DNA from: Bradyrhizobium zhanjiangense
Lineage (GTDB): Bacteria; Pseudomonadota; Alphaproteobacteria; Rhizobiales; Xanthobacteraceae
DNA length: 64,000 bases
Direction: 5' to 3'
NCBI RefSeq assembly: GCF_004114935.1
Contig: NZ_CP022221.1
Location: 6,717,001-6,781,000, forward strand
Shown here: piece after piece, positions 47,347 to 61,167 of the stretch
Position numbering within the stretch: position 1 is the first letter of the stretch
Layout: each line of letters opens with the position of its first letter
Program-made: the position numbers and the translations under genes
The notes under the pieces: model-generated
What the model saw: only the letters and a program-made list of their open reading frames with translations
What the model was told of the DNA's origin: nothing
Database searches by the model: none

Positions 47347-47378
47347 TTGGCGCGTTCCTTGCTGGAATGGCGCTTGCA
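47347..47378 (+). promoter_or_regulatory. Two tandem sigma-54 (RpoN) promoter cores
   Basis: The first core, TTGGCGCGTTCCTTGCT at 47347-47363, fits the YTGGCACGRNNNTTGCW consensus with a GG dinucleotide and a GC dinucleotide ten bases apart. The second, CTGGAATGGCGCTTGCA at 47362-47378, has the same GG-N10-GC spacing but a weaker -24 block. Transcription would start near 47374 or 47389 and lead into the oligopeptide-binding gene at 47465. Confidence 0.72.
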
Positions 47379-47464
47379 CGGGTCGTGAACTCTGGGCAAC
47401 ATGGATCGATCGGCCCCGCCGAACAATCAAAAATGACGGTCGGGGCGAGTGGAGAGGGTCAAGA

Positions 47465-49063
47465 ATGTCAGTCGGACGAAGTTTGTTTGCGGCGACGCTC
47501 GCCGGTGCGCTTGCGTTGGCGGTCTCGCCGGCGTCGAGCCAGACGCTGCGCTACGCCAACCAGGGTGAGCTCAAGTCGCTCGATCCCTACACGCTGAACG
47601 AGTCGACCACCAGCGCGCATCTCGGTCATGTCTATGAGGGCCTGGTCGCCCGCGGCAAGGACCTGAAGATCGTCCCGGCGCTCGCCGAAAGCTGGGAGAC
47701 GCCGGAACCGACACGCTGGCGTTTTCACCTGCGCAAGGGCGTGAAATTCCACAATGGCGACCCCTTCACCGCTGACGACGTGGTGTTCTCGGCCGAGCGC
47801 GTACGAGCAAAAGGCTCGAATTTCCAGAGCCGCGTTCCCGCCGATGCCAAGGTCGTCAAGGTCGACGATTACACCGTCGATTTCATCCTGACCTCGCCCA
47901 ATCCGATCCTGACGGCGCTGTGGGCGACCTGGTACATCATGGACAAGAAATGGGCAGAGGCGAACGATGCGGTGGCACCGACGCCAGCGGCCGCCACGAC
48001 TCCGAGCTATGCGTCGCTCCATGAAAACGGCACCGGTCCGTTCGTCATCGAAAGCCATCAGCCGGGCGTGAAGACCGTCTTCAAGGTCAACCCGAACTGG
48101 TGGCGCAAGCCGGAACATAATCTGAAGGAGATCATCTTTACGCCGATCGCCAACCCCGCCACCCGTGTTGCGGCGCTGTTGTCGGGCGAAGTCGACGTGA
48201 TCGAGCCGGTACCGGTGCAGGACATCGAGCGCGTCAAAGCGAGCCCCAACGCCACGGTGCTGACGGGACCTGAGCTCCGCACCATCTTCGTCGGCATGGA
48301 TCAGGCGCGCGACGAGCTCCTGTATTCCAACGTCAAGGGCAAGAACCCGTTCAAGGACGTTCGCGTCCGTGAAGCCGTCTACCGGGCGATCGATGTCGAC
48401 CTGATCAAGAACCGCGTCATGCGCGGGCTGTCCACGCCGTCCGCATTGATGGTCGCACCGGAGATCTATCCGTCGAAGGGCTTCACCCGGCCGAAATTCG
48501 ATCCCGACGCCGCCAAGAAGCTCCTTGCCGACGCCGGCTATGCCGACGGTTTCGAGGTGACGATGGACTGCCCGAACGATCGCTACGTCAATGACGCCGC
48601 GATCTGTCAGGCCATCGTCGGCATGCTCGCCCGCATCAACATCAAGGTGGATCTTCTGGCGCAGCCCAAGGCCCAATATTTCGCCAAGGTGCTCAAGCCC
48701 GGCGGCTACAAGACCTCGCTGTTCATGCTGGGCTGGACCCCGGATACGCTCGATTCCCAGAACGTGCTGCACGACATCATGGGTTGCCGGGACGATCCCA
48801 AGGATCCCAACCGCGGCGAAGCCAATCTCGCCGGCTATTGCAACAAGCAGTTCGACGAGCTCGCCGACAAGGTTCTCGTGGAATCCGACACGGCCAAGCG
48901 CGATCTCCTGATCAAGCAGGCCTTCGAGCTCTCGATGAAGGACTGGGCCTATATCCCGCTGCACCAGCAGGCGCTCGCCTGGGGCGTGTCGAAGAAGGTG
49001 AAGCTGACCCAGCGTGCGGACAACATGGTCATGCTCTACTGGGCGACCAAGCAGGAAGAGTAA
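47465..49063 (+). CDS. ABC transporter substrate-binding protein, family 5 (DppA/OppA type), transporter 1
   Basis: This 532-residue periplasmic protein binds peptides or similar ligands. The signal peptide is MSVGRSLFAATLAGALALAV with cleavage near ASS-QT. Family blocks include LRYANQGELKSLDPYTLNES, FHLRKGVKFHNGDPFTADDV and NPFKDVRVREAVYRAIDVDL. GGAGAGGG precedes the ATG at 47465; longer in-frame starts upstream lie in the promoter. It is the first gene after the sigma-54 cores and is followed by permeases and ATPases of the same system. A strong hairpin follows the stop codon. Confidence 0.95.
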   Translation: MSVGRSLFAATLAGALALAVSPASSQTLRYANQGELKSLDPYTLNESTTSAHLGHVYEGLVARGKDLKIVPALAESWETPEPTRWRFHLRKGVKFHNGDPFTADDVVFSAERVRAKGSNFQSRVPADAKVVKVDDYTVDFILTSPNPILTALWATWYIMDKKWAEANDAVAPTPAAATTPSYASLHENGTGPFVIESHQPGVKTVFKVNPNWWRKPEHNLKEIIFTPIANPATRVAALLSGEVDVIEPVPVQDIERVKASPNATVLTGPELRTIFVGMDQARDELLYSNVKGKNPFKDVRVREAVYRAIDVDLIKNRVMRGLSTPSALMVAPEIYPSKGFTRPKFDPDAAKKLLADAGYADGFEVTMDCPNDRYVNDAAICQAIVGMLARINIKVDLLAQPKAQYFAKVLKPGGYKTSLFMLGWTPDTLDSQNVLHDIMGCRDDPKDPNRGEANLAGYCNKQFDELADKVLVESDTAKRDLLIKQAFELSMKDWAYIPLHQQALAWGVSKKVKLTQRADNMVMLYWATKQEE

Positions 49064-49079
49064 GCGTCGACAAGTTGTG

Positions 49080-49109
49080 AAGTCCCGGAAGCCTTGGCTT
49101 CCGGGACTT
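49080..49109 (+). promoter_or_regulatory. Intercistronic hairpin after the binding-protein gene
   Basis: AAGTCCCGGAAGCC and GGCTTCCGGGACTT pair perfectly over 14 bases around TT. There is no run of T after it, so it is not a classical terminator. Such hairpins often protect binding-protein mRNA and reduce read-through to permease genes. Confidence 0.7.
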
Positions 49110-49164
49110 GCCGTTTCGGGTTAACGCAATGATGCGTGCTGCTGAAGAGATGTGAAAGGAACAG

Positions 49165-50145
49165 ATGCTCGCTTTCACACTGCGCCGGGCCATCCAGGCC
49201 ATCGGTGTCATGATCGCCGTCGGGATCATCGCGTTCTCGATGTTCCGCTTCGCCGGCGATCCCGTAAACCAGATGGTCGGGATGGACACGTCGGGCGCTG
49301 AACGCGCCGCGATCCGCAAATCGCTCGGCCTCGACGACCCCGTTCTCGTGCAGTTTGGCCGCTATATCGGCAACGCCGCGCAGTTCAAATTCGGCGTGTC
49401 CTATCAGTTCCGCCTCCCCGTCAACAATCTGCTGATGGAGCGGATGCCCGCGACGCTGGAGCTCGCGATCTGTGCCACCATCTTCGCGATGGTCAGCGGC
49501 ATCCTGATGGGCGTCTATTCGGCGCTGCGCCGTGACAGCTGGCTCGCGCACATATTTCAAGCCGTCTCGCTGATCGGCATCTCGCTGCCGACCTTCCTGA
49601 TCGGCATTCTCATGATCTACCTGTTTTCGGTGACGCTCGGCTGGTTGCCTTCGTTCGGGCGAGGCGACGTCGTGCATATCGGCTGGTGGACGACTGGCCT
49701 TCTGACGTTGTCGGGCTTGAAAGCGTTGATCATGCCCGCGATCACACTTGGCCTGTTCCAGATGACGCTGATCATGCGCCTCGTGCGCGCGGAGATGCTG
49801 GAAGTGATGCGGACGGACTACATCCGCTTCGCCCGTGCGCGCGGACTGACCACGCGGGCGATCCATTTCGGTCACGCGCTGCGCAACACGCTGGTTCCTG
49901 TCATCACCGTGGCAGGCCTGCAATTTGGCTCGGTCATTGCCTTCGCAATCATCACCGAGACCGTGTTCCAGTGGCCGGGCATGGGGCTCCTGTTCGTGCA
50001 GGCCGTTCAGAACGTCGATATCCCGATCATGGCGGCCTACCTGATGATGGTCTCCCTGATCTTCGTCACCATCAATCTCGTGGTTGATATCCTCTACACC
50101 ATCGTCGATCCGCGGCTGCGCTCGACGGTCAGCCGGGCGCACTGA
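49165..50145 (+). CDS. Oligopeptide ABC permease, DppB/OppB type, transporter 1
   Basis: This 326-residue inner-membrane permease has six hydrophobic segments. It begins MLAFTLRRAIQAIGVMIAVG, typical of DppB-type subunits. The periplasmic insertion contains ERAAIRKSLGLDDPVLVQFG, and the ATPase-contact loop is in MLEVMRTDYIRFARARGLTT. The C-terminus (DILYTIVDPRLRS) matches the family. AAAGGAAC precedes the start. The next permease begins one base after its stop codon. Confidence 0.95.
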   Translation: MLAFTLRRAIQAIGVMIAVGIIAFSMFRFAGDPVNQMVGMDTSGAERAAIRKSLGLDDPVLVQFGRYIGNAAQFKFGVSYQFRLPVNNLLMERMPATLELAICATIFAMVSGILMGVYSALRRDSWLAHIFQAVSLIGISLPTFLIGILMIYLFSVTLGWLPSFGRGDVVHIGWWTTGLLTLSGLKALIMPAITLGLFQMTLIMRLVRAEMLEVMRTDYIRFARARGLTTRAIHFGHALRNTLVPVITVAGLQFGSVIAFAIITETVFQWPGMGLLFVQAVQNVDIPIMAAYLMMVSLIFVTINLVVDILYTIVDPRLRSTVSRAH

Positions 50146-50146
50146 C

Positions 50147-51109
50147 ATGAGTGAGGCCGTCGTTCCGCATAGTGTCGAGAAGCGCGCCGCGGCCGCACCT
50201 GGCTGGTTCAGGCGCGCGCTCGACAGCGACCTGTTCTATTCGTTCCGCCGCTCCAAGATCACCATGATCGCTGCGGGGGTAACGCTTCTGTTCTTCCTGC
50301 TCGCGATCTTCGCCTCGGTGCTGTCGGTGCAGAATCCATTCGATCCGGCGCAGCTTCAGTTGATGAATTCTCGCATCTCGCCGCTCTGGACCGCCGACGG
50401 TCAGAGCCCGTTCCTGCTCGGCACCGACGAGCAGGGACGTGACGTGCTGTCCGCGATCCTCTACGGCCTGCGCATTTCGCTGCTCGTCGGCGTCCTCGGC
50501 GTGGTCTTGTCTGGCGTACTCGGCATCCTGCTCGGGCTGACGGCGGGTTATTTCGGCGGCGCAGTGGATGGATTGATCATGCGCATCGCCGACGTGCAGC
50601 TTTCTTTCCCGGCCATCCTGATTGCACTCTTGATCAACGGCATCGCTAAATCGGTCTTTGGCAACAAGCTCGACGAGATGAGCATGTTGGCGGTTCTGGT
50701 CTTCGCGATCGGCCTGAGTTTTTGGGTGCAGTACGCGCGCACTGTGCGTGGCTCGGTCCTGGTCGAGAAGAACAAGGATTATGTCGCAGCAGCGCAATTG
50801 ATCGGCCTGCCCGCCCCCGTGATCATGCTACGCCACGTGTTGCCGAACACCACGGGACCGATCCTCGTGATCGCTACCATCAATCTCGCGCTCGCCATCA
50901 TCACCGAGGCAACACTGTCGTTCCTCGGCTCGGGCATGCCCGAAACCATGCCGTCGCTCGGCACGCTGATCCGCATCGGCAACGGCTATCTGTTCGCAGG
51001 CGAATGGTGGATCGTCGCCTTTCCAGGGCTCGCGCTCGCGGCGCTGATTCTGTCGATCAATCTGCTTGGCGACTGGCTGCGCGACGCGCTCAATCCAAAA
51101 CTTCGATGA
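50147..51109 (+). CDS. Oligopeptide ABC permease, DppC/OppC type, transporter 1
   Basis: This 320-residue permease pairs with the preceding DppB-type protein. It has an N-terminal OppC_N segment (SKITMIAAGVTLLFFLLAIF) and the typical LLGTDEQGRDVLSAILYGLR. The contact loop is in KNKDYVAAAQLIGLPAPVIM, and the C-terminus has LAALILSINLLGDWLRDALN. The ATG at 50147 is one base past the previous stop. An upstream in-frame start at 50084 would overlap the DppB-type gene and is rejected. Confidence 0.95.
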   Translation: MSEAVVPHSVEKRAAAAPGWFRRALDSDLFYSFRRSKITMIAAGVTLLFFLLAIFASVLSVQNPFDPAQLQLMNSRISPLWTADGQSPFLLGTDEQGRDVLSAILYGLRISLLVGVLGVVLSGVLGILLGLTAGYFGGAVDGLIMRIADVQLSFPAILIALLINGIAKSVFGNKLDEMSMLAVLVFAIGLSFWVQYARTVRGSVLVEKNKDYVAAAQLIGLPAPVIMLRHVLPNTTGPILVIATINLALAIITEATLSFLGSGMPETMPSLGTLIRIGNGYLFAGEWWIVAFPGLALAALILSINLLGDWLRDALNPKLR

Positions 51110-51122
51110 GTATGCCTCGCCC

Positions 51123-52109
51123 ATGACCGAACCCGTTCTCTCCGTGCGCAACCTCCAGGTCGAGTTCGCCTCCCGCCGCGGCACGCTGCGCGCCATCGAC
51201 GGCGTCTCCTTCGACATCGCCAAGGGCGAGGTGCTCGGCGTGGTCGGCGAATCCGGCGCCGGCAAGTCCGTCACCGGTCTCTCGGTGATCGGCCTGATCG
51301 ATCCGCCCGGCCGCATCGCCGGCGGCGAGATTCATCTCGCGGGCCTGCGAATCGACAATCTGCCACCTGAGGAGATGCGCCGCATCCGGGGCAAGCGCAT
51401 CGGCATGATCTTCCAGGATCCCCTCACCTCGCTCAATCCGCTCTACCGGGTCGGCGACCAGATCGTGGAGACGATCCGGACCCACCTCAATCTCTCCGAA
51501 CAAGCGGCGCGCCGCCGCGCCATCGATCTCTTGGCCGAAGTCGGCATTCCCGCGCCGGAAAAGCGCATCGACGGCTATCCCCACGAATTCTCCGGCGGCA
51601 TGCGCCAGCGCGTGGTGATTGCGCTGGCGATCTGCGCCGAGCCGGAACTGATCATCGCAGACGAGCCAACCACCGCGCTCGATGTCTCCGTGCAGGCGCA
51701 GATCATCTCCCTGATCAAACGGCTCGGGCGCGACCACGGCACCGCCGTGATGCTGGTGACCCACGACATGGGCGTGATCGCGGAGACGTCGGACCGGGTC
51801 GCGGTGATGTATGCCGGCCGCATCGCCGAGATCGGTCCGGTGCAGGATGTCGTGAAGAATCCGCTGCACCCCTACGCCAGGGGGCTGATGGGCGCGATCC
51901 CGACGCTGGCCGGAGACGACAAGCGTCTCGTGCAGATTCCCGGCTCCATGCCGCGCCTGTCGGCGATTCCGCCGGGTTGCTCGTTCAATCCGCGCTGCGC
52001 CTTCGCCTTCGACCGCTGCCGGGTGGAACGGCCGGAGCCGCTCCCACGTGGCGCGCAGTCGGTTGCCTGCCACCTCTATGACAATGTGCCGGCGGAGAGC
52101 GCGGCATGA
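51123..52109 (+). CDS. Oligopeptide ABC ATPase, DppD/OppD type, transporter 1
   Basis: This 328-residue ATPase powers transporter 1. Walker A is GVVGESGAGKSVTGLSV, the signature is EFSGGMRQRVVIALAIC, and Walker B is ELIIADEPTTALDVSVQAQI. The OppD C-terminal extension has three or four cysteines (GCSFNPRCAFAFDRCRVERP), the usual place for a [4Fe-4S]-like motif. The ATG at 51123 is 13 bases after the permease stop. Its end overlaps the OppF-type gene by ATGA. Confidence 0.95.
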   Translation: MTEPVLSVRNLQVEFASRRGTLRAIDGVSFDIAKGEVLGVVGESGAGKSVTGLSVIGLIDPPGRIAGGEIHLAGLRIDNLPPEEMRRIRGKRIGMIFQDPLTSLNPLYRVGDQIVETIRTHLNLSEQAARRRAIDLLAEVGIPAPEKRIDGYPHEFSGGMRQRVVIALAICAEPELIIADEPTTALDVSVQAQIISLIKRLGRDHGTAVMLVTHDMGVIAETSDRVAVMYAGRIAEIGPVQDVVKNPLHPYARGLMGAIPTLAGDDKRLVQIPGSMPRLSAIPPGCSFNPRCAFAFDRCRVERPEPLPRGAQSVACHLYDNVPAESAA

Positions 52110-53095
52110 GCGTTCCCTTCGTCCAGGCTACAAATCTACGCCGCGTCTTCGACGTCTCGAAGCCATGGCTCAATCGCGTGCTCGAAGGTGGGCATCTCGA
52201 ATACCTCAAGGCGGTCGATCACGTTAGCTTCGAGATCAGGAAGGGCGAGACGTTCGCCCTGGTCGGCGAATCCGGTTCCGGCAAGACCACGGTGGCGCGC
52301 ATGGTCGTCGGCCTGTTGCCGCCGAGTTCTGGCGATGTGCTGATCGACGGCGTGTCGATGACCGATCCGCGACAGGCGTCGGCGCGGCGGAAGCTACGCC
52401 GCCGCATCCAGATGATCTTCCAGGACCCCTATGCCAGCCTGAACCCTCGCTTCCGGGTCGACGCCATCATCTCCGAGCCGATCCGCGCCTTCGACCTGAT
52501 CCAGGGTGAGCGCGACATCCAGGCTCGCGTCGGCGAGCTGCTCAGCCTCGTCGGCCTGCACCCCGACGACAGGCTGAAATTTCCGCACGAGTTCTCCGGC
52601 GGCCAGCGCCAGCGCATCGCGATCGCGCGCGCGCTCGCATCGGACGCCGAGTTCATCGTCTGCGACGAGCCGACCTCGGCCCTCGACGTCTCCGTGCAGG
52701 CCCAGATCCTGAATCTGATGCGCGATCTCCAGGACAAGTTCGGCCTGACCTACATGTTCATCAGCCACAACCTCGCCGTGGTCCGCCACATGGCGAGCCG
52801 GGTCGGCGTGATGTATCTCGGCCGCATCGTCGAGATCGCGGAAGGACGCGAGCTGTTCGCCCGTCCGCGCATGCCCTACACCAAGATGCTGCTGGGTGCC
52901 GTGCCAGATCTCGCCATGAGCGGCCGCCAGCGCGTTCCGGTGAAAGGCGAGATCCCGAACCCGATCCATCCCCCCTCCGGCTGCGCCTTCAACCCGCGCT
53001 GTCCGCTGGCGTTCGATCTCTGTCGCAAGGACACGCCGGAGCTGATCGACGGCGTCGCCTGCCACGCGGTCAACACCGCGCCAGTCCCGGCGTGA
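52106..53095 (+). CDS. Oligopeptide ABC ATPase, DppF/OppF type, transporter 1
   Basis: This 329-residue ATPase is the second nucleotide-binding subunit of transporter 1. Walker A is LVGESGSGKTTVARMVVGL, the signature is [17 protein letters not shown], and Walker B is EFIVCDEPTSALDVSVQAQI. The C-terminal oligopeptide region has GCAFNPRCPLAFDLCRKD. It overlaps the preceding ATPase gene by four bases (ATGA). It completes a five-component system: binding protein, two permeases, two ATPases. Confidence 0.95.
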   Translation: MSVPFVQATNLRRVFDVSKPWLNRVLEGGHLEYLKAVDHVSFEIRKGETFALVGESGSGKTTVARMVVGLLPPSSGDVLIDGVSMTDPRQASARRKLRRRIQMIFQDPYASLNPRFRVDAIISEPIRAFDLIQGERDIQARVGELLSLVGLHPDDRLKFPHEFSGGQRQRIAIARALASDAEFIVCDEPTSALDVSVQAQILNLMRDLQDKFGLTYMFISHNLAVVRHMASRVGVMYLGRIVEIAEGRELFARPRMPYTKMLLGAVPDLAMSGRQRVPVKGEIPNPIHPPSGCAFNPRCPLAFDLCRKDTPELIDGVACHAVNTAPVPA

Positions 53096-53176
53096 CGCGC
53101 GCGTGCCATGCAGCCTGCGCATTTGGCGGCGGCGTGGCCCTGTGATCAATTGCGCGCGTCGCAAATGAGGTAGCCC

Positions 53177-54982
53177 ATGACCAGCAAAATCAATCCCGAT
53201 CCGTTCACGACGAGGCCGGAGATCGAAGGCACCTTCGGGGTCGTCGCCACCACGCATTGGATTGCGACCGCCGTTGGCATGGGCATCCTGGAGAAGGGCG
53301 GCAACGCCTTCGACGCCGGTGTCGCCACCGCCTTCACGCTCCAGGTGGTCGAGCCGCATCTGAACGGCCCCGGCGGCGACGTGCCTGTCATCGTCCATGA
53401 CGTCAAGCGCGGGCGCACCGAAGTGATCTGCGGTCAAGGCCCGGCACCGGCACGCGCCACCATCGCGCACTACAAGAGCGAAGGCCTCGACATGGTGCCC
53501 GGCACCGGTCTGCTCGCCGCCTGCGTTCCCGGCACCTTCGAATCCTGGATGATGCTGCTGCGCGACTACGGCACAATGCGTGTGCGCGATGTGCTGGAGC
53601 CCGCGATCTCCTATGCGCGTGACGGCTATCCGCTGGTCGAGCGCGCCTGCGCCACGATCCAGACGGTCGAGCAGCTGTTCCGCAAGCATTGGCCGACCTC
53701 GGCCGCTGTCTACCTGCCGAATGGCGAGGTGCCGAGGCCCGGAACGCTGTTCACCAACAAGACGCTGGCTGCGACCTATACCCGCATTCTCAGCGAGGCC
53801 GAGAGCGGCGGCGGCGGCCGCGACGCCGAGATCGAGCGCGCGCGAAAAGCCTGGTCGCAAGGTTTCGTTGCGGAAGCCATCGACAAATTCTGCCGCACCC
53901 AGGAGGTCATGGACGTTAGCGGTTCGCCGCATCGCGGCGTCCTCTCGGCCGACGACATGGCACGCTGGCAGCCGACGATCGAGGCGCCGCTCACTTACGA
54001 TTACGGTCGCTACACCGTCTGCAAGGCCGGTGTCTGGAGCCAGGGCCCGGTTACGCTCCAGCAGCTCGCTCTTTTGAAAGGCTTTGCGCTCGACGGGCTC
54101 GATCCGACCGGGCCGGAGTTCATCCATCTCCAGATCGAATGCGCCAAGCTGGCATTCGCCGACCGCGAAAAGTTCTACGGCGATCCCAAATTCAACGAGA
54201 TCCCGATCACGACGTTGCTGTCGGATGCCTATAACGACGAGCGCCGCAAGCTCGTCACCGAAAGGGCCTCGCTCGACTTCCGCCCCGGCTCGGTCGAGGG
54301 CTTTGGCGGCGTGGTCAAGCTTCGCCGCGCCGAGGGCCAGCGCGAGGCGGTCGGCGCGCTCGGTGCCGGCGAACCGACCGTGGGGCGCTTCGGCGAAGTG
54401 CACGGCGACACCGTGCATTTCGACATCATCGACAAGGCCGGCAACATGGTGTCCTCGACGCCGTCGGGCGGCTGGCTGCAATCCTCGCCGATCATTCCCG
54501 AGCTCGGCTTCTGTCTCGGCAGCCGCGCACAGATGTTCTGGCTCGAGGAGGACCATCCCGCGGCGCTCGCGCCGGGCAAGCGGCCGCGCACCACGCTGTC
54601 GCCGACCATGGCGCTGCGCGATGGCGAGCCGTATCTCGCCTGGGGCTCGCCCGGCGGCGACCAGCAGGACCAGTGGATCACGCAGTTCTTCCTGCGCCAC
54701 GTCCATTGCAACCTCAATCTCCAGGAGGCGATCGACGCGCCGGCCTGGCACTCCGAACACTTCCCGATCTCGTTCTGGCCGCGCACCGCGCGCCCGGGCG
54801 TGCTCGTGGTCGAGAACCGCGTGCCGAAGGCCACGATCGAGAACCTTCGCGAGCGCGGGCACATCGTCGAGGTCGGTCCCGACTGGTCGGAAGGCCGCCT
54901 CACCGCAGCCTCGCGCGTCGGCGTGCGCCGGCGCGCTGCCGCAAATCCCCGCGGCATGCAGGGCTACGCCGTAGGACGCTGA
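53177..54982 (+). CDS. Gamma-glutamyltransferase-family protein, apparently cytoplasmic
   Basis: This 601-residue protein is of the GGT family of Ntn hydrolases, which cut gamma-glutamyl or related amide bonds after self-cleavage. The likely nucleophile and cleavage site is Thr412 in GEVHGDTVHFDIIDKAGNMV, giving a large part of about 411 and a small part of 190 residues. Other blocks are LEKGGNAFDAGVATAFTLQV, PGGDVPVIV and SPTMALRDGEPYLAWGSPGG. No signal peptide is seen (MTSKINPDPFTTRPEIEGTF), unlike classic periplasmic GGT. GAGG lies just before the ATG. It is between two complete peptide transporters. Confidence 0.92.
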   Translation: MTSKINPDPFTTRPEIEGTFGVVATTHWIATAVGMGILEKGGNAFDAGVATAFTLQVVEPHLNGPGGDVPVIVHDVKRGRTEVICGQGPAPARATIAHYKSEGLDMVPGTGLLAACVPGTFESWMMLLRDYGTMRVRDVLEPAISYARDGYPLVERACATIQTVEQLFRKHWPTSAAVYLPNGEVPRPGTLFTNKTLAATYTRILSEAESGGGGRDAEIERARKAWSQGFVAEAIDKFCRTQEVMDVSGSPHRGVLSADDMARWQPTIEAPLTYDYGRYTVCKAGVWSQGPVTLQQLALLKGFALDGLDPTGPEFIHLQIECAKLAFADREKFYGDPKFNEIPITTLLSDAYNDERRKLVTERASLDFRPGSVEGFGGVVKLRRAEGQREAVGALGAGEPTVGRFGEVHGDTVHFDIIDKAGNMVSSTPSGGWLQSSPIIPELGFCLGSRAQMFWLEEDHPAALAPGKRPRTTLSPTMALRDGEPYLAWGSPGGDQQDQWITQFFLRHVHCNLNLQEAIDAPAWHSEHFPISFWPRTARPGVLVVENRVPKATIENLRERGHIVEVGPDWSEGRLTAASRVGVRRRAAANPRGMQGYAVGR

Positions 54983-54992
54983 TGGGCAGAAA

Positions 54993-55699
54993 ATGACCTG
55001 GTCGATCATCGCGCGAGATCCTGCCACCGGCCAGTTCGGCATTGCCGTTGCGACGCGTTTCTTCGCCGTGGGCGCGCGTGTCCCGTACATTGCCGCTGGA
55101 CTCGGGGCAATCGCCACACAGGCCTTGGTCAATCCCTATTACGGCATCGACGGCGTCAAGCTGCTGCGCGAAGGCCTCAATGCACACGACGTGCTTGCCG
55201 CGCTGATTGCTGCCGACGACGGCCGCGAAAGCCGCCAGATCCACATCATGGACGCGAGCGGCGAGATCGCCGCGCATACCGGGCGCGATTGTATCGACTG
55301 GTGCGGACACATCGCGGGCAGCGGCTTCTCCATCGCCGGCAACATGCTTGCGGGCGCCGACGTGCTCGACGAGACCGCAAAGACCTACATCGCCAATGAT
55401 AGCCTGCCCTTCCCGCGCCGTCTGCTCGCGGCGATGTGCGCCGGCGAAGCCGCCGGCGGTGACAAGCGGGGCAAGCAGTCGGCGGCGCTGCTGATCCATG
55501 GCGAGGAGGAATGGCCTGCGTTGGACATTCGCGCTGACGATCATCCCGATCCGCTCGGGGAGCTCGAACGACTCGAGCAGGTCAGCCACGAGCTCTGGGT
55601 GCACTTCCGCGCCTCCATGCCGACACGGCAGAACCCGGCCGGCAACACCGATCGCAGCGTCATCGACGCCAGCATCAAAGCAGCCCGCGCAAGACAGTC

Positions 55700-55703
<4 letters not shown>
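54993..55703 (+). CDS. DUF1028 family protein (putative Ntn-type hydrolase)
   Basis: This 236-residue protein belongs to DUF1028, a family placed in the Ntn-hydrolase fold. The N-terminus is MTWSIIARDPATGQFGIAVA, followed by TRFFAVGARVPYIAAGLGAI. After removal of Met the Thr2 would be the N-terminal residue and could act as nucleophile; this is inference. A C-terminal part holds ALLIHGEEEWPALDIRADDH, typical of the family. It begins ten bases after the GGT-like gene and overlaps the next ATPase gene by ATGA. The reaction is not established. Confidence 0.9.
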
Positions 55704-56688
<985 letters not shown>

Positions 56689-56689
<1 letters not shown>

Positions 56690-57795
56690 TGGCACTGCTC
56701 GAGGTCGAAGGCCTGGTCAAGCATTTCGTGGCCGAACGCTCGCTGTTCGGCCGCGCTCGGGCGCATGTCAAGGCCGTCGATGGCGTCTCCTTCTCGGTCG
56801 AAGCCGGCAAGACGCTGGCCCTGGTCGGCGAGTCCGGTTGCGGCAAATCCACCGTCAGCCGTCTGGTGCTGCGGCTGATCGAGCCGGATGCGGGTACGGT
56901 ACGCTTTGACGGCCGTGATCTTCTCTCCCTGGACGCCAATGCACTCCGCGCCTTCCGCCGCGAAGCCCAAATCATCTTCCAGGACCCCTACGCCTCGCTC
57001 AATCCGCGCATGACCGTCGGCCAGATCCTGACCGAGCCGCTGGCGCTGCACGATCTGGTACCGCCGAAGCAACGGCGCGAGCGCGTCGTGGAGCTGCTGC
57101 GGCTGGTCGGGTTGGAGCCGCGGCTGGCGCAGCGCTATCCGCATGAATTCTCCGGCGGTCAGCGCCAGCGCATTGCCATCGCCCGCGCGCTCGCGGTCGA
57201 GCCGAAGCTGATCATCTGCGACGAGCCGGTCTCGGCGCTGGACGTCTCGATCCGCTCGCAGATCCTCAACCTTCTGCGCGAGCTCCAGGATCGGCTCGGC
57301 CTCGCCTACATCTTCGTCTCGCATGACCTCGCTGTGGTCAAGCACATCGCCGACCACGTGGCGGTGATGAATCTCGGCCAGATCGTCGAGACCGCGGAGG
57401 CCGACGCGCTCTTCGCAGCACCGCGACATCCCTACAGCCGGGCGCTGTTGTCCGCGATCCCCCTGCCACAGCCGAAAGCGAAGCGAACGACGGTCCTATT
57501 GGCAGGCGAGATCCCGAGCGCGCTCAATCCGCCGTCCGGCTGCCGCTTCCACACCCGCTGCCCCTTCGTTATCGAGCGCTGTCGCACCGAGGCGCCGGAG
57601 CTCGTGGCCGACCGCGCGGGCCACGCCGCCGCCTGTCACCGCGTAGGCGAGCTGCCGTCTGCCGACGCCATCCTGCCGGCGGCCGGCGGGTTTTCGCCAG
57701 CACTTGCAAAATTGGTCGCGGCCTTCAGCCAAAAGACGGAAGGCACAGCCGTCTCCGGGGTTGGTATACAAGACACCGCGCCCACAACGACGTAG
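56689..57795 (+). CDS. Oligopeptide ABC ATPase, DppF/OppF type, transporter 2
   Basis: This 368-residue ATPase pairs with the preceding subunit. Walker A is [19 protein letters not shown], the signature is [17 protein letters not shown], and Walker B is [20 protein letters not shown]. After the usual oligopeptide region ([20 protein letters not shown]) it carries about 40 extra residues with no clear motif, longer than the transporter 1 counterpart. The ATG at 56689 overlaps the previous stop; a GTG one codon upstream is an alternative. The next gene starts 22 bases later. Confidence 0.93.
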
Positions 57796-57817
57796 CCGAA
57801 GCAATAGGGATTGTCCG

Positions 57818-59326
57818 ATGAAGATGTTTCGCCTGGCCGCAACGGCCACCGCCTTCCTGCTGTCGGTCGTAACAGCGCAAGCCCAAACCACGCTGCGCAT
57901 CGGTCTTGCCGAGGACCCCGACATCCTCGATCCATCGATGGCACGCACCTATGTCGGCCGCATCGTGTTCTCCGCGTTCTGCGACAAGCTGTTCGACATC
58001 GACGAGAAGCTCAACATCGTGCCCCAGCTCGCGCTGTCCAGCGAAACGGCCGATGATGGCAAAGCGCTCGTCATCAAGCTCCGCCCTGGCGTGAAATTCC
58101 ACGACGGCGAGCCGTTCGATGCCGAGGCCGCCAAGTTCTCGCTGGAGCGCCACCTGACCTTCCCGGGTTCCTTCCGCAAGCCAGAGCTGGCCTCGGTCGA
58201 CCACATCGACGTCGTCGATCCCCTCACCATCAAGCTGGTGCTGAAGTCGCCGTTCTCGCCGCTGCTCGCCCAGCTCACCGATCGTGCCGGCATGATGGTG
58301 TCGCCGAAGGCGGCGAAGGAAGCCGGCGATAAGTTCGGCCTGCGTCCGGTCTGCGCGGGTCCTTACAAATTCGTCGAGCGCGTGCAGCAGGACCGCATCG
58401 TGTTCGAGAAGTTCGCCGACTATTGGAACAAGAACAACGTCTTTATCGACCGCATCGTGTTCCAGCCGATCGTCGATGCCACGGTGCGGCTCGCGAACCT
58501 GAAGTCCGGCGGACTCGACCTGATCGAGCGCGTGCTCGCCACCGACCTCAAGGAGGTTCGCGCGGATTCGCGGCTGAAGGTCGCGACCGCCATCGAGCTC
58601 GGCTATCAGGGGGTCACCCTCAACATCGGCAAGGACAAGGCCAAGGGGCCGCTCAGCCAGTCCGCCAAGGTGCGACAGGCGCTCGATCTCGCCATCGACC
58701 GCGAGGCGATCAACCAGGTCGTGTTCAACGGCGAGTTTCAGGTTGGCAATCAATGGGTCAATCCTGATCATCCCTATTATCAGAAATCCCTTCCAGTCCG
58801 TCCCCGCAATGTCGAGAAAGCCAAGGCGCTGCTGAAGGAAGCCGGCGTGACGCCGCCAGTCAGCGTCGATTTCCTGGTGCCAAAGGGCGCCGAGACGGAG
58901 ACGCCGGCGCAGGTGATCCAGTCCATGGCGGCCGAAGCCGGCTTCGATATGAAGATCCGCCTCACCGAATTCGCGACCGGACTGAAGCAGGCCGAGGCCG
59001 GCGACTACCAGGCCTACATGCTCGCCTGGAGCGGCCGCGTCGATCCCGACGGCAACACCTACGTCTTCCTGCACAGCGGCGCGCCGCAGAACTACGGCGC
59101 GTGGAACAATGCACAGGCTGACAAGGCGCTGGAGGATGCGCGAGCGGTGACCGATCCCGCCAAGCGCAAGGCCAGTTACGAAGCTCTGGCGAAACTGGTC
59201 CAGGAGGAAGAGCCCCTCCTTTACATCTATCATCGCCGCATCATCATCGCGCACACGACCAAGCTCGAAGGTTACAGGCAGATGCCCGACGGCCTCGTGC
59301 GCGTGGTCGGTCTCAAGCTGAAGTGA
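57818..59326 (+). CDS. ABC transporter substrate-binding protein, family 5, transporter 2
   Basis: This 502-residue periplasmic binding protein has a signal peptide (MKMFRLAATATAFLLSVVTA, cleavage near AQA-QT). Family blocks include TTLRIGLAEDPDILDPSMAR, IKLRPGVKFHDGEPFDAEAA and KVRQALDLAIDREAINQVVF. The ATG at 57818 is chosen because it starts the signal peptide; an upstream start at 57704 lies inside the ATPase gene. In transporter 2 the binding protein follows the ATPases rather than leading, the reverse of transporter 1. Confidence 0.94.
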   Translation: MKMFRLAATATAFLLSVVTAQAQTTLRIGLAEDPDILDPSMARTYVGRIVFSAFCDKLFDIDEKLNIVPQLALSSETADDGKALVIKLRPGVKFHDGEPFDAEAAKFSLERHLTFPGSFRKPELASVDHIDVVDPLTIKLVLKSPFSPLLAQLTDRAGMMVSPKAAKEAGDKFGLRPVCAGPYKFVERVQQDRIVFEKFADYWNKNNVFIDRIVFQPIVDATVRLANLKSGGLDLIERVLATDLKEVRADSRLKVATAIELGYQGVTLNIGKDKAKGPLSQSAKVRQALDLAIDREAINQVVFNGEFQVGNQWVNPDHPYYQKSLPVRPRNVEKAKALLKEAGVTPPVSVDFLVPKGAETETPAQVIQSMAAEAGFDMKIRLTEFATGLKQAEAGDYQAYMLAWSGRVDPDGNTYVFLHSGAPQNYGAWNNAQADKALEDARAVTDPAKRKASYEALAKLVQEEEPLLYIYHRRIIIAHTTKLEGYRQMPDGLVRVVGLKLK

Positions 59327-59336
59327 CGCCGAAGGG

Positions 59337-60278
59337 ATGCTGAACTTCCTCGCCCGCCGCCTTGTGCAGATCGTGCCGACGCTGTTCTTCGTGTCGGTGC
59401 TGATCTTCTCGCTGCAACAATTGCTGCCGGGCGATCCCGCGCTGGTGATGGCGGGCGAAGAGCGCGATCCTGCGGTGATCGAGCAGATCCGGCATCAGTA
59501 CCGGCTCGATCAGCCGGTTCCCGTGCAGTATGCCTACTGGATCAAGGGCGTCCTGTCGGGCGACTTTGGCGAGTCGCTGCGCAACAAGATGCCGGTGCGC
59601 GAGCTGATCGCGCAGAAGCTGCCGGTGACGCTACAGCTCGGCTCGATGGCGATCCTGATCGCGTTCTGCATCGGCATTCCCGCCGGCATCGTCGCGGCCG
59701 TGAAGAAAGGCACCGCCTGGGACTACGGCGCCAATTTCTTCGCGCTGTGGGGCATCTCCACGCCGAATTTCTGGCTCGGCATCATGTTGATCTTCCTGTT
59801 CTCGATCGAGCTCGGCTGGCTGCCGGCCTCGGGCTATGTGCCGCTCACCGAAAACTGGCGCGCGAGCCTGGCGGCCACCATCATGCCCGCCTTCGTGCTC
59901 GGCAATGCGATTGCCGCGATCCTGATGCGTCATACCCGCAGCGCCATGCTCCAGGTGCTGGAGAGCGACTATGTCCGTACTGCGCGCGCCAAGGGACTGT
60001 CGGAACGCTCGGTCATCCTCAAGCACGCGATGCGTAACGCACTGACGCCCATCATCACGCTCGGCGCGCTCGAGCTCGGCACACTCTTGTCGGGTGCGGT
60101 GCTGACCGAACAAATCTTCTCCATCCCCGGCTTCGGCAAGCTGATCGTGGATGCCGTGTTCAACCGCGACTATGCGGTCGTGCAGGGCGTGGTGCTGGTG
60201 ACGGCCACGGTCTACATCACGCTGAATCTCATTGCGGACGTCGCTTATATCCTCGTCAATCCGCGGCTACGGGGCTAG
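59337..60278 (+). CDS. Oligopeptide ABC permease, DppB/OppB type, transporter 2
   Basis: This 313-residue permease begins MLNFLARRLVQIVPTLFFVS. It has the periplasmic block IRHQYRLDQPVPVQYAYWIK, the contact loop in MLQVLESDYVRTARAKGLSE and the C-terminal VAYILVNPRLRG. AAGGG sits directly before the ATG, an unusually close ribosome site. It is ten bases downstream of the binding-protein stop and five bases before the next permease start, so all belong to one unit. Confidence 0.94.
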   Translation: MLNFLARRLVQIVPTLFFVSVLIFSLQQLLPGDPALVMAGEERDPAVIEQIRHQYRLDQPVPVQYAYWIKGVLSGDFGESLRNKMPVRELIAQKLPVTLQLGSMAILIAFCIGIPAGIVAAVKKGTAWDYGANFFALWGISTPNFWLGIMLIFLFSIELGWLPASGYVPLTENWRASLAATIMPAFVLGNAIAAILMRHTRSAMLQVLESDYVRTARAKGLSERSVILKHAMRNALTPIITLGALELGTLLSGAVLTEQIFSIPGFGKLIVDAVFNRDYAVVQGVVLVTATVYITLNLIADVAYILVNPRLRG

Positions 60279-60282
60279 TGCC

Positions 60283-61167
60283 ATGACTGACACGGCGCTC
60301 GCCAGTCCCGTCACGCAAGCTCACGAGCCGGACAGCCCGGCACGCCGCGCCCGGCGGCGTCTGTTCAGGCGCAAGGCCGCTGTGTTTGGCCTCATCGTGA
60401 TCATCGCGTTCATCCTTCTTGCGGTGCTTGCACCGGTCGTCGTTCCCTATGATCCCGTCGCGACGAGCTGGAGCCTGGTGCGCAAGCCGCCGACCGCCGC
60501 GCACTGGTTCGGCACCGACGAGCTCGGCCGCGACATCCTGAGCCGCGTCATCTACGGCGCGCGAGCCTCGCTGCTTGCAGGCTTGATCTCGGTCGCGATC
60601 GCGCTCGGCATCGGCCTGCCGCTGGGCCTCCTCGCCGGCTATCGCGGCGGCTTCGCCGATGCGCTGATCAGCCGGATCACCGACGCAATGCTCGCCTGCC
60701 CGTTCCTGATCCTGGCGATTGCGCTGGCGGCATTCCTCGGTCCGAGCCTCGGCAATGCCATGATCGCGATCGGCATCTCCGCAACCCCGATCTTCATCCG
60801 CCTGACCCGCGGCCAGGTGCTGAGCGTCAAGGCCGAGGACTATGTCGAGGCCGCGCGGGCACTCGGCAATCCACCGTGGCGGATCGCGTTCTCGCATATC
60901 CTGCCGAACATCCTGCCGGCGCTGCTGGTGCAGGCGACACTGTCGATCGCGGCGGCCATCATCGCCGAAGCGGCGTTGTCCTTCCTCGGCCTCGGCCAGC
61001 AGCCGCCGGCACCGTCATGGGGCAGCATGCTCAATGCCGCACAGCGCTTCCTGACCCAGGCGCCCTGGATGGCGATCTGGCCGGGGCTTGCGATCTTTCT
61101 GGTGGTGCTGTCGCTGAACCTGCTCGGCGACGGCCTGCGCGACGCACTCGACCCGCGCCAGCGCTAG
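60283..61167 (+). CDS. Oligopeptide ABC permease, DppC/OppC type, transporter 2
   Basis: This 294-residue permease has an OppC_N-type first helix (RKAAVFGLIVIIAFILLAVL), the block FGTDELGRDILSRVIYGARA, the contact loop in VKAEDYVEAARALGNPPWRI and the end FLVVLSLNLLGDGLRDALDP. It completes transporter 2: two ATPases, binding protein and two permeases. A repeat element follows, then convergent signalling genes, which marks the end of the 14-kb run. The ATG at 60283 is used; an earlier in-frame start overlaps the previous gene. Confidence 0.95.
   Translation: MTDTALASPVTQAHEPDSPARRARRRLFRRKAAVFGLIVIIAFILLAVLAPVVVPYDPVATSWSLVRKPPTAAHWFGTDELGRDILSRVIYGARASLLAGLISVAIALGIGLPLGLLAGYRGGFADALISRITDAMLACPFLILAIALAAFLGPSLGNAMIAIGISATPIFIRLTRGQVLSVKAEDYVEAARALGNPPWRIAFSHILPNILPALLVQATLSIAAAIIAEAALSFLGLGQQPPAPSWGSMLNAAQRFLTQAPWMAIWPGLAIFLVVLSLNLLGDGLRDALDPRQR

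Follow-up and report, generated by a model that had tools for sequence, protein, structure and literature searches.

What is the task of two hydrolases whose genes lie between two complete peptide-type importers? In a stretch of 64,000 nucleotides from Bradyrhizobium zhanjiangense (the window, positions 6717001-6781000 of a genome that is a single 9.34-Mb contig), twelve co-directional genes encode two ATP-binding cassette (ABC) transporters and, between them, a protein resembling gamma-glutamyltransferase (GGT) and a DUF1028 protein. An earlier note on this DNA had read the set as one dedicated system that imports amide or gamma-glutamyl compounds and cuts them inside the cell. We found that the conserved unit is smaller: it consists of the GGT-like gene, the DUF1028 gene and the second of the two transporters. 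The GGT-like protein, judged from its sequence, is an N-terminal nucleophile (Ntn) hydrolase of the LmbA2991 type without a gamma-glutamyl pocket. As a full explanation we favor, at slightly better than even odds, a catabolic cassette for import and cleavage. The genes, in order, are listed here.

47465..49063, + strand: A1, binding protein of transporter 1 (SBP_bac_5, signal peptide)
49165..50145, + strand: B1, permease of transporter 1
about 50147..51109, + strand: C1, permease of transporter 1
about 51123..52109, + strand: D1, ATPase of transporter 1
52106..53095, + strand: F1, ATPase of transporter 1
53177..54982, + strand: LmbA2991-type Ntn hydrolase (GGT-like; G_glu_transpept, 399 bits)
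54410..54412, + strand: codon of the predicted nucleophile T412 (equivalent to T391 of E. coli GGT and T421 of LmbA2991)
54993..55703, + strand: DUF1028 Ntn hydrolase (PF06267, 251.6 bits)
55700..56689, + strand: D2, ATPase of transporter 2; ATGA overlap with DUF1028
56689..57795, + strand: F2, ATPase of transporter 2; TGATG overlap with D2
about 57818..59326, + strand: A2, binding protein of transporter 2 (SBP_bac_5); WSGR at the DppA-Asp site
59337..60278, + strand: B2, permease of transporter 2
about 60283..61167, + strand: C2, permease of transporter 2; a TTG start at 60232 is also possible

The twelve-gene order is real and conserved, and it recurs beyond chance. Each gene has a Pfam or NCBIfam match, and all twelve occur in order at 78 of 80 Bradyrhizobium-type loci; these are the best 80 of 267 confirmed in a scan of named genomes and hence close relatives (DUF1028 identity 88-96%). 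One of the two exceptions runs into a contig end (L196), and the other (L146) keeps transporter 1, the GGT-like gene and the DUF1028 gene, with only transporter 2 missing. Another genome, G270 (L233), retains transporter 1 and the GGT-like gene and is missing both DUF1028 and transporter 2. No A2 relative at E <= 1e-60 was detected anywhere in the L146 or G270 genomes, and the order-wide search gave no DUF1028 match in G270; G216, by comparison, does have an A2 relative at that threshold. The full Bradyrhizobium locus is also found, with 89-97% identity for each protein, in a record titled Frankia sp. RB7 (L205), whose name or assembly is probably wrong.

We then considered the neighbors of DUF1028 genes across the order, where matches were found in 127 of 297 genomes. 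Neighbors were counted at 100 DUF1028 loci (the strongest matches, then a subset of weaker ones). Loci with DUF1028 identity of at least about 52% were assigned to the same clade, and transporter 2 was called from a B2 permease at 55% identity or more. Seven other Bradyrhizobium loci all encode the GGT-like protein and transporter 2 (7/7), with transporter 1 in 6/7. At the 31 same-clade loci outside Bradyrhizobium, transporter 2 is present in 25 and the GGT-like gene in 23, and transporter 1 lies beside the cassette in none (0/31). The 62 more distant DUF1028 loci include none with a GGT-like gene (0/62) and nine with any Opp-type permease pair. Based on these counts, the conserved unit is the GGT-like gene, DUF1028 and transporter 2. 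The predicted adjacency of the enzymes to a family-5 importer thus extends well past this strain: within the genus it is common with either transporter, its range is broader with transporter 2, and it breaks down for transporter 1 outside the genus. The proposal that both transporters form one dedicated system is not borne out, given the 0/31 count and the separate loci at which transporter 1 is encoded elsewhere.

Annotated plasmids that carry the cassette come from Tritonibacter, Rhizobium, Sulfitobacter, Qingshengfaniella, and Loktanella. Incomplete versions were also recovered: the GGT-like gene and transporter 2 are present without DUF1028 in Haematobacter, Phyllobacterium, Pseudochrobactrum, and Paracoccus, and DUF1028 and transporter 2 without the GGT-like gene on a Comamonadaceae plasmid. 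In Nonomuraea (Actinomycetota) the genes run GntR/FCD - A2B2C2D2F2 - LmbA-type - TauE, much as in the alphaproteobacterial kit. The LmbA-type loci examined from one Streptomyces and one Embleya have no transporter 2.

Which chemistry can be expected of the GGT-like protein? Its closest structures in the PDB are 6j3a/6j3i (E about 1e-196), followed by 2nlz (1.6e-51), which is named as a cephalosporin acylase, and 4y23 (7.8e-51), the best of the other GGTs. The 6j3a chain comprises 617 residues, with D420-T421 and a small subunit that starts with TCHLDVVDRW. For LmbA2991 of Streptomyces lincolnensis, the relevant section of PMC5519988 gives 420 + 197 residues, D420/T421 and "TCHLDVVDRW." From chain length, processing site and small-subunit start we infer that 6j3a is LmbA2991; no paper was found under the PDB code 6J3A. 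The window protein shares 56% identity with 6j3a over 579 columns, compared to 28% with E. coli GGT and 29% with the canonical GGT of its own genome. In a tree rooted on two canonical GGTs, the branch that separates these from the rest has 99% support, in a tree that carries a long-branch warning for L050_10, L062_03, L230_11, and EcGGT.

Bound glutamate is contacted in E. coli GGT by R114, S462, and S463 (carboxylate) and by N411, Q430, and D433 (amine), according to a passage of PMC6769717 with which a passage of PMC3940202 agrees. In the window protein, R114/N411/Q430/D433/S462/S463 are replaced by Q/G/R/M/T/T, the identical letters being found in 6j3a. Q, G, R, M, and T463 occur in 52 of 55 aligned GGT-type rows (a set that includes the window protein and 6j3a, and in which L046 and L234 are one gene), and position 462 is T (41) or S (11). 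All 52 rows with this pocket signature have an Asp before the Thr, and the three exceptions (L050_10, L062_03, L230_11) are remote. The rows of two further paralogues from the same genome (L254, L256, L257) were empty and were dropped. The canonical GGT of this genome (L253), encoded elsewhere than the window, has R/N/E/D/S/S at the six positions. In total, the genome has five PF01019 segments at four places (the window gene, 449341, 7470138, and a pair at 7754772-7756118).

The fold itself is retained. The window protein matches PF01019 at 399 bits and keeps the positions of GGT-fold T391 and of G483-G484 (the Gly-Gly backbone hole), and it misses the TIGR00066 cut-off (278.6 of 357.85 bits). 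By analogy with the processing site of LmbA2991, it is predicted to cleave itself between D411 and T412, with T412 as the nucleophile. LmbA and Ant6 are stated in PMC6085292 to have no gamma-glutamyl transfer or hydrolysis activity. PMC5519988, in the section on these enzymes, describes C-C cleavage of a 2-oxo side chain by Ant6 and LmbA2991, likely via an oxalyl-Thr intermediate, assigns LmbA and Ant6 roles in antibiotic biosynthesis, and calls the natural role of LmbA2991 itself unclear. The window protein aligns with LmbA2991 (as 6j3a) over its full length and has the same Asp-Thr cleavage site and identical pocket residues; its gene differs from those of LmbA and Ant6 in being tied to an importer and to DUF1028. 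A structure that we take to be HpxW, 5hft, is a remote match to the window protein only (3e-23). Oxamate amidohydrolase chemistry of the HpxW kind would likewise give an oxalyl-enzyme, which is why that group was considered as a candidate for membership.

Gamma-glutamyl chemistry, as originally proposed for this protein, is therefore rejected, because the side chains of all six glutamate contacts are replaced and the protein groups with LmbA2991 and not with GGT. The same evidence bears on the main line of the earlier note, an importer of glutathione or gamma-glutamyl peptides with a cytoplasmic GGT, which we consider improbable. Its architecture is that of GisABCD-Ggt of Staphylococcus aureus, described in part of PMC10355420 as an ABC importer whose genes accompany that of a cytoplasmic Ggt, which cuts glutathione (GSH) and its disulfide (GSSG). 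In addition, among the NCBIfam models GsiB scores highest for both A2 (197.6 bits, far below the 594-bit cut-off) and A1 (139.4 bits). Against this stand the replaced pocket, the inactivity of LmbA and Ant6 on gamma-glutamyl substrates, the presence of a canonical GGT elsewhere in the genome, and the absence from A2 of the Asp found in DppA. GisABCD-Ggt is nonetheless, by analogy, the nearest known system in function: in both cases an ABC importer is gene-linked to a GGT-fold enzyme without a signal peptide (none is visible by eye on the window protein, as had been noted before), and in GisABCD-Ggt cleavage follows uptake of the whole compound into the cell. The window cluster differs in lacking the gamma-glutamyl pocket and in adding the DUF1028 enzyme and a second transporter. 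Because the pocket residues are replaced we do not file it as a member of that system, yet it may work like one.

The second enzyme is a clear member of its family. Its match to PF06267 is full-length and scores 251.6 bits against a curated cut-off of 26.2, and the genome encodes a single DUF1028 copy. T2 is found in 80 of 89 aligned rows (8 gaps, 1 Gly), that is, in 80/81 rows with a residue there; R81, G97, N117, and R143 are invariant over the 89 rows, and Q82 is present in 88. T2 is predicted to serve as an N-terminal Thr nucleophile after removal of Met. The observation that two Ntn-hydrolase-fold proteins lie between the transporters is thus upheld, both being of the Thr type by sequence. 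The sequence search returned 2imh as the only solved relative. This structure is of SPO2555, which the passage on it in a 2022 review (PMC9140057) reports as a seventh Ntn-hydrolase subfamily with a Thr nucleophile in SCOPe; the passage calls SPO2555 uncharacterized and without peer-reviewed data, and doubts the status of the separate subfamily. The window protein resembles it in the full-length DUF1028 match and in the Thr at position 2. A literature search gave nothing under DUF1028 or PF06267, the relevant text being that review, found via SPO2555/2IMH.

Many distant DUF1028 genes (among L105-L138) are found in a recurrent set of their own, with genes for an HpaB-type monooxygenase, a partner of about 170 amino acids, RidA, DUF1028, an unassigned protein of 315 amino acids and an M20 peptidase. 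In this set one member per cluster was scanned, and the 170- and 315-amino-acid clusters were left unscanned. The setting suggests a role of distant DUF1028 proteins in amide or imine breakdown, and the set is perhaps for oxidative breakdown of N-heterocycles.

The binding protein of transporter 2 provides a hint about what is imported. Both transporters have the full five-part make-up of family-5 peptide importers and resemble Opp, Dpp and Gsi importers in this respect. The Asp of E. coli DppA at one aligned site presumably holds the alpha-amine of the peptide; the motif is WTGD in 8z1y and WTGR in the variant 8z1z. A2 differs from DppA in having an Arg there (WSGR), as do 85 of 86 main Bradyrhizobium rows (the other being a gap) and 37 of 37 clustered rows elsewhere, including an actinomycete (L220). 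Because of this Arg, ordinary peptides with a free amine appear unlikely as ligands of transporter 2. In the best reading its cargo would be an amide or a 2-oxo compound that is carboxylated and poor in amines. We did not adopt a substrate from binding-protein similarity, as the scores of the top PDB relatives (5u4o, YliB/GsiB, AgaA, DppA, and others) differ too little to decide. F2 is over one NCBIfam subfamily cut-off (NF008453), and no NCBIfam equivalog cut-off was reached among the matches listed for the nine proteins tested.

These features are combined in the reading we favor. Transporter 2 (D2-F2-A2-B2-C2) would import a small carboxylated compound without a free peptide-type alpha-amine, to be cut in the cytoplasm by the two Thr-type Ntn hydrolases. 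The LmbA2991-type enzyme, after cleaving itself at D411/T412, would attack a carbonyl (of an amide or a 2-oxo acid) and possibly leave an oxalyl-Thr intermediate, and the DUF1028 enzyme would act through T2 once its Met is removed. In Bradyrhizobium the cassette would have become fixed behind transporter 1, which probably feeds related compounds to the same enzymes. The import-then-cleave idea of the earlier note therefore stands for transporter 2, and its gamma-glutamyl substrate is not supported.

Several observations weigh against this explanation. Among the loci counted, transporter 1 adjoins the cassette only in Bradyrhizobium. A phylum-wide search of 398 genomes (E <= 1e-130) found the LmbA-type enzyme in 28 genomes at 29 places, ten of which are the usual Bradyrhizobium loci (one in G641). 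The other 19 (including L065 and L261, the latter a second copy in Bradyrhizobium G216) have transporter 2 at 7 and DUF1028 at 4. The LmbA-type enzyme is thus not bound to transporter 2 and has other partners, namely MFS, TctC-type, and other ABC transporters. In a mixed, not unbiased set of 58 loci, transporter 2 is present at 40, of which 30 have DUF1028, leaving 10/58 where the GGT-like gene and transporter 2 occur without it. Conversely, DUF1028 and transporter 2 occur without a close GGT-like gene at L038, L047, L049, and L050. Furthermore, in eight of ten cassettes of one genus, g22 (L048, L051, L053-L058), both ATPase genes between DUF1028 and A2 are missing, and these importers must borrow ATPases or have them encoded elsewhere in the genome.

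Alternatively, the enzymes might salvage or repair an internal metabolite, rather than break down imported compounds, and be linked to the transporters only through common regulation. We consider this quite unlikely. It is in keeping with the unclear role given for LmbA2991 in the cited section of PMC5519988, and with the 12 of 19 phylum-wide loci outside the usual Bradyrhizobium arrangement that are not beside transporter 2. However, the enzyme is coupled to importers of unrelated kinds (Opp-type, MFS, TctC-type, and other ABC), and a GntR/FCD regulator gene lies near 23 of the 40 transporter-2-linked loci versus 1 of the 18 others, a count that missed the Nonomuraea regulator, which was recognized by Pfam.

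Two further features of the LmbA-type loci were recorded. At four loci from two phyla (L034, L035, L220, L228), a gene for a TauE/SafE-type anion exporter is found no more than 4.5 kb from the GGT-like gene, where it perhaps serves to export a small anionic product; as a clue to sulfur it was dropped, being present at just 4 of the 40 transporter-2-linked loci. The second LmbA2991-type gene of Bradyrhizobium G216 (L261; contig C1, 1432500-1452400) is 85% identical and lies apart from the cassette, with a different Opp-type transporter nearby.

Is transporter 1 part of the cassette? At E <= 1e-90, 116 of the 297 genomes of the order encode relatives of A1. The 18 non-Bradyrhizobium regions among 20 fetched for transporter 1 (L235-L252) encode A1-B1-C1, mostly with D1 or D1-F1, and no cassette. 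An M20 peptidase gene is close by in 13 of these 18 (one member of each cluster was scanned with Pfam). In G236, from another genus of the same family (L235), transporter 1 occurs without the cassette beside some of the upstream neighbors seen in Bradyrhizobium, partly rearranged, and with different downstream neighbors. In G216 (L234), nine called genes separate transporter 1 from the cassette. Transporter 1 is thus a separate transporter of the dipeptide/oligopeptide type. Because of these separate loci and the arrangements at L234, L235, L233, and L146, we read the history as an arrival of the cassette behind transporter 1 within the Bradyrhizobium lineage, followed by losses.

Transporter 1 might instead be a mere neighbor, an importer of dipeptides and oligopeptides in general, next to which the cassette landed by accident in a Bradyrhizobium ancestor. 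We regard this as a serious alternative, though one with odds clearly below even. The separate loci with their M20 peptidases, the G236 region and the nine intervening genes of G216 speak for it. On the other hand, the adjacency is kept at 78 of 80 close loci, and the two strains without transporter 2 retain transporter 1 with one or both enzymes. Their losses hint at a shared task, in which the enzymes could be supplied by transporter 1; recent loss without function would explain the L146 and L233 pattern equally well. The 81-bp gap before the GGT-like gene, where transporter 1 meets the cassette, contains no terminator-like match. This gap and the 101 bp after A1 are the widest intergenic gaps of the region, in which terminator-like matches (8 vs 7.9 in shuffles) and promoter-like matches (3 vs 2.2) are both at chance level. 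At the other side of the enzymes, the overlaps reported previously are present at 55700-55703 (ATGA, DUF1028/D2) and 56687-56691 (TGATG, D2/F2). A1 itself probably starts at 47465 rather than 47347, based on a signal peptide judged by eye.

Both binding-protein segments vary within Bradyrhizobium. Among 79 sequences (the window and 78 loci), two blocks occur as divergent alleles, with edges read from 20 of the 78 loci.

47460..50900, no strand given: A1-B1-C1 block, two divergent alleles across Bradyrhizobium
57400..59350, no strand given: block of the F2 3' end and A2, two divergent alleles across Bradyrhizobium

The A1-B1-C1 classes comprise 43 and 36 sequences by A1 (about 81% identical between classes vs about 95% within), with edges near 47460 and 50900, and one A1 type I sequence falls with type II in B1 and C1. 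The classes of A2 and the F2 end comprise 36 and 43 (about 75% vs about 94%), with edges near 57400 and 59350. D1, F1, the GGT-like protein, D2, and B2 show a single mode or weak structure. The A1 and A2 classes combine independently (21, 22, 15, and 21; Fisher p 0.65). On a tree of the D1, F1, GGT-like, D2, and B2 proteins of the same locus (not a species tree), the A1 class changes 18 times (19-32 in 200 shuffles) and the A2 class 4 times (20-32 in shuffles), although B2, which adjoins A2, is part of the tree and may pull it toward the A2 classes. Because of this difference in changes, we conclude that A1-B1-C1 is exchanged often and A2 rarely.

At the DppA-Asp site, the window A1 has Asp (GWTPD). 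This is the residue in 35 of 42 type I loci (Ala in 4, Gly in 3), and of the 36 type II loci, 35 have Ser and 1 has Gly; outside the two Bradyrhizobium types, A1 mostly has Gly or Ser. Because the residue differs at this site, the A1 classes may differ in ligand. A more far-reaching version of the catabolic reading would join these alleles to the cross-phylum distribution: an Opp-type importer would feed C-C-cleaving (oxalyl-releasing) LmbA2991-type and DUF1028 hydrolases, with two binding-protein alleles of different ligand preference for each transporter, reshuffled between Bradyrhizobium strains. We consider this version unlikely as a whole.

The conserved link of the LmbA2991-type and DUF1028 families to one importer makes the open roles of both testable through the ligand of A2. 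Proteins annotated as members of the gamma-glutamyltransferase family, as relatives of the window enzyme are, may well not act on glutathione where they are encoded beside such importers. If the cross-phylum catabolic reading were true, it would provide a first physiological role for both the LmbA2991-type and the DUF1028 families.

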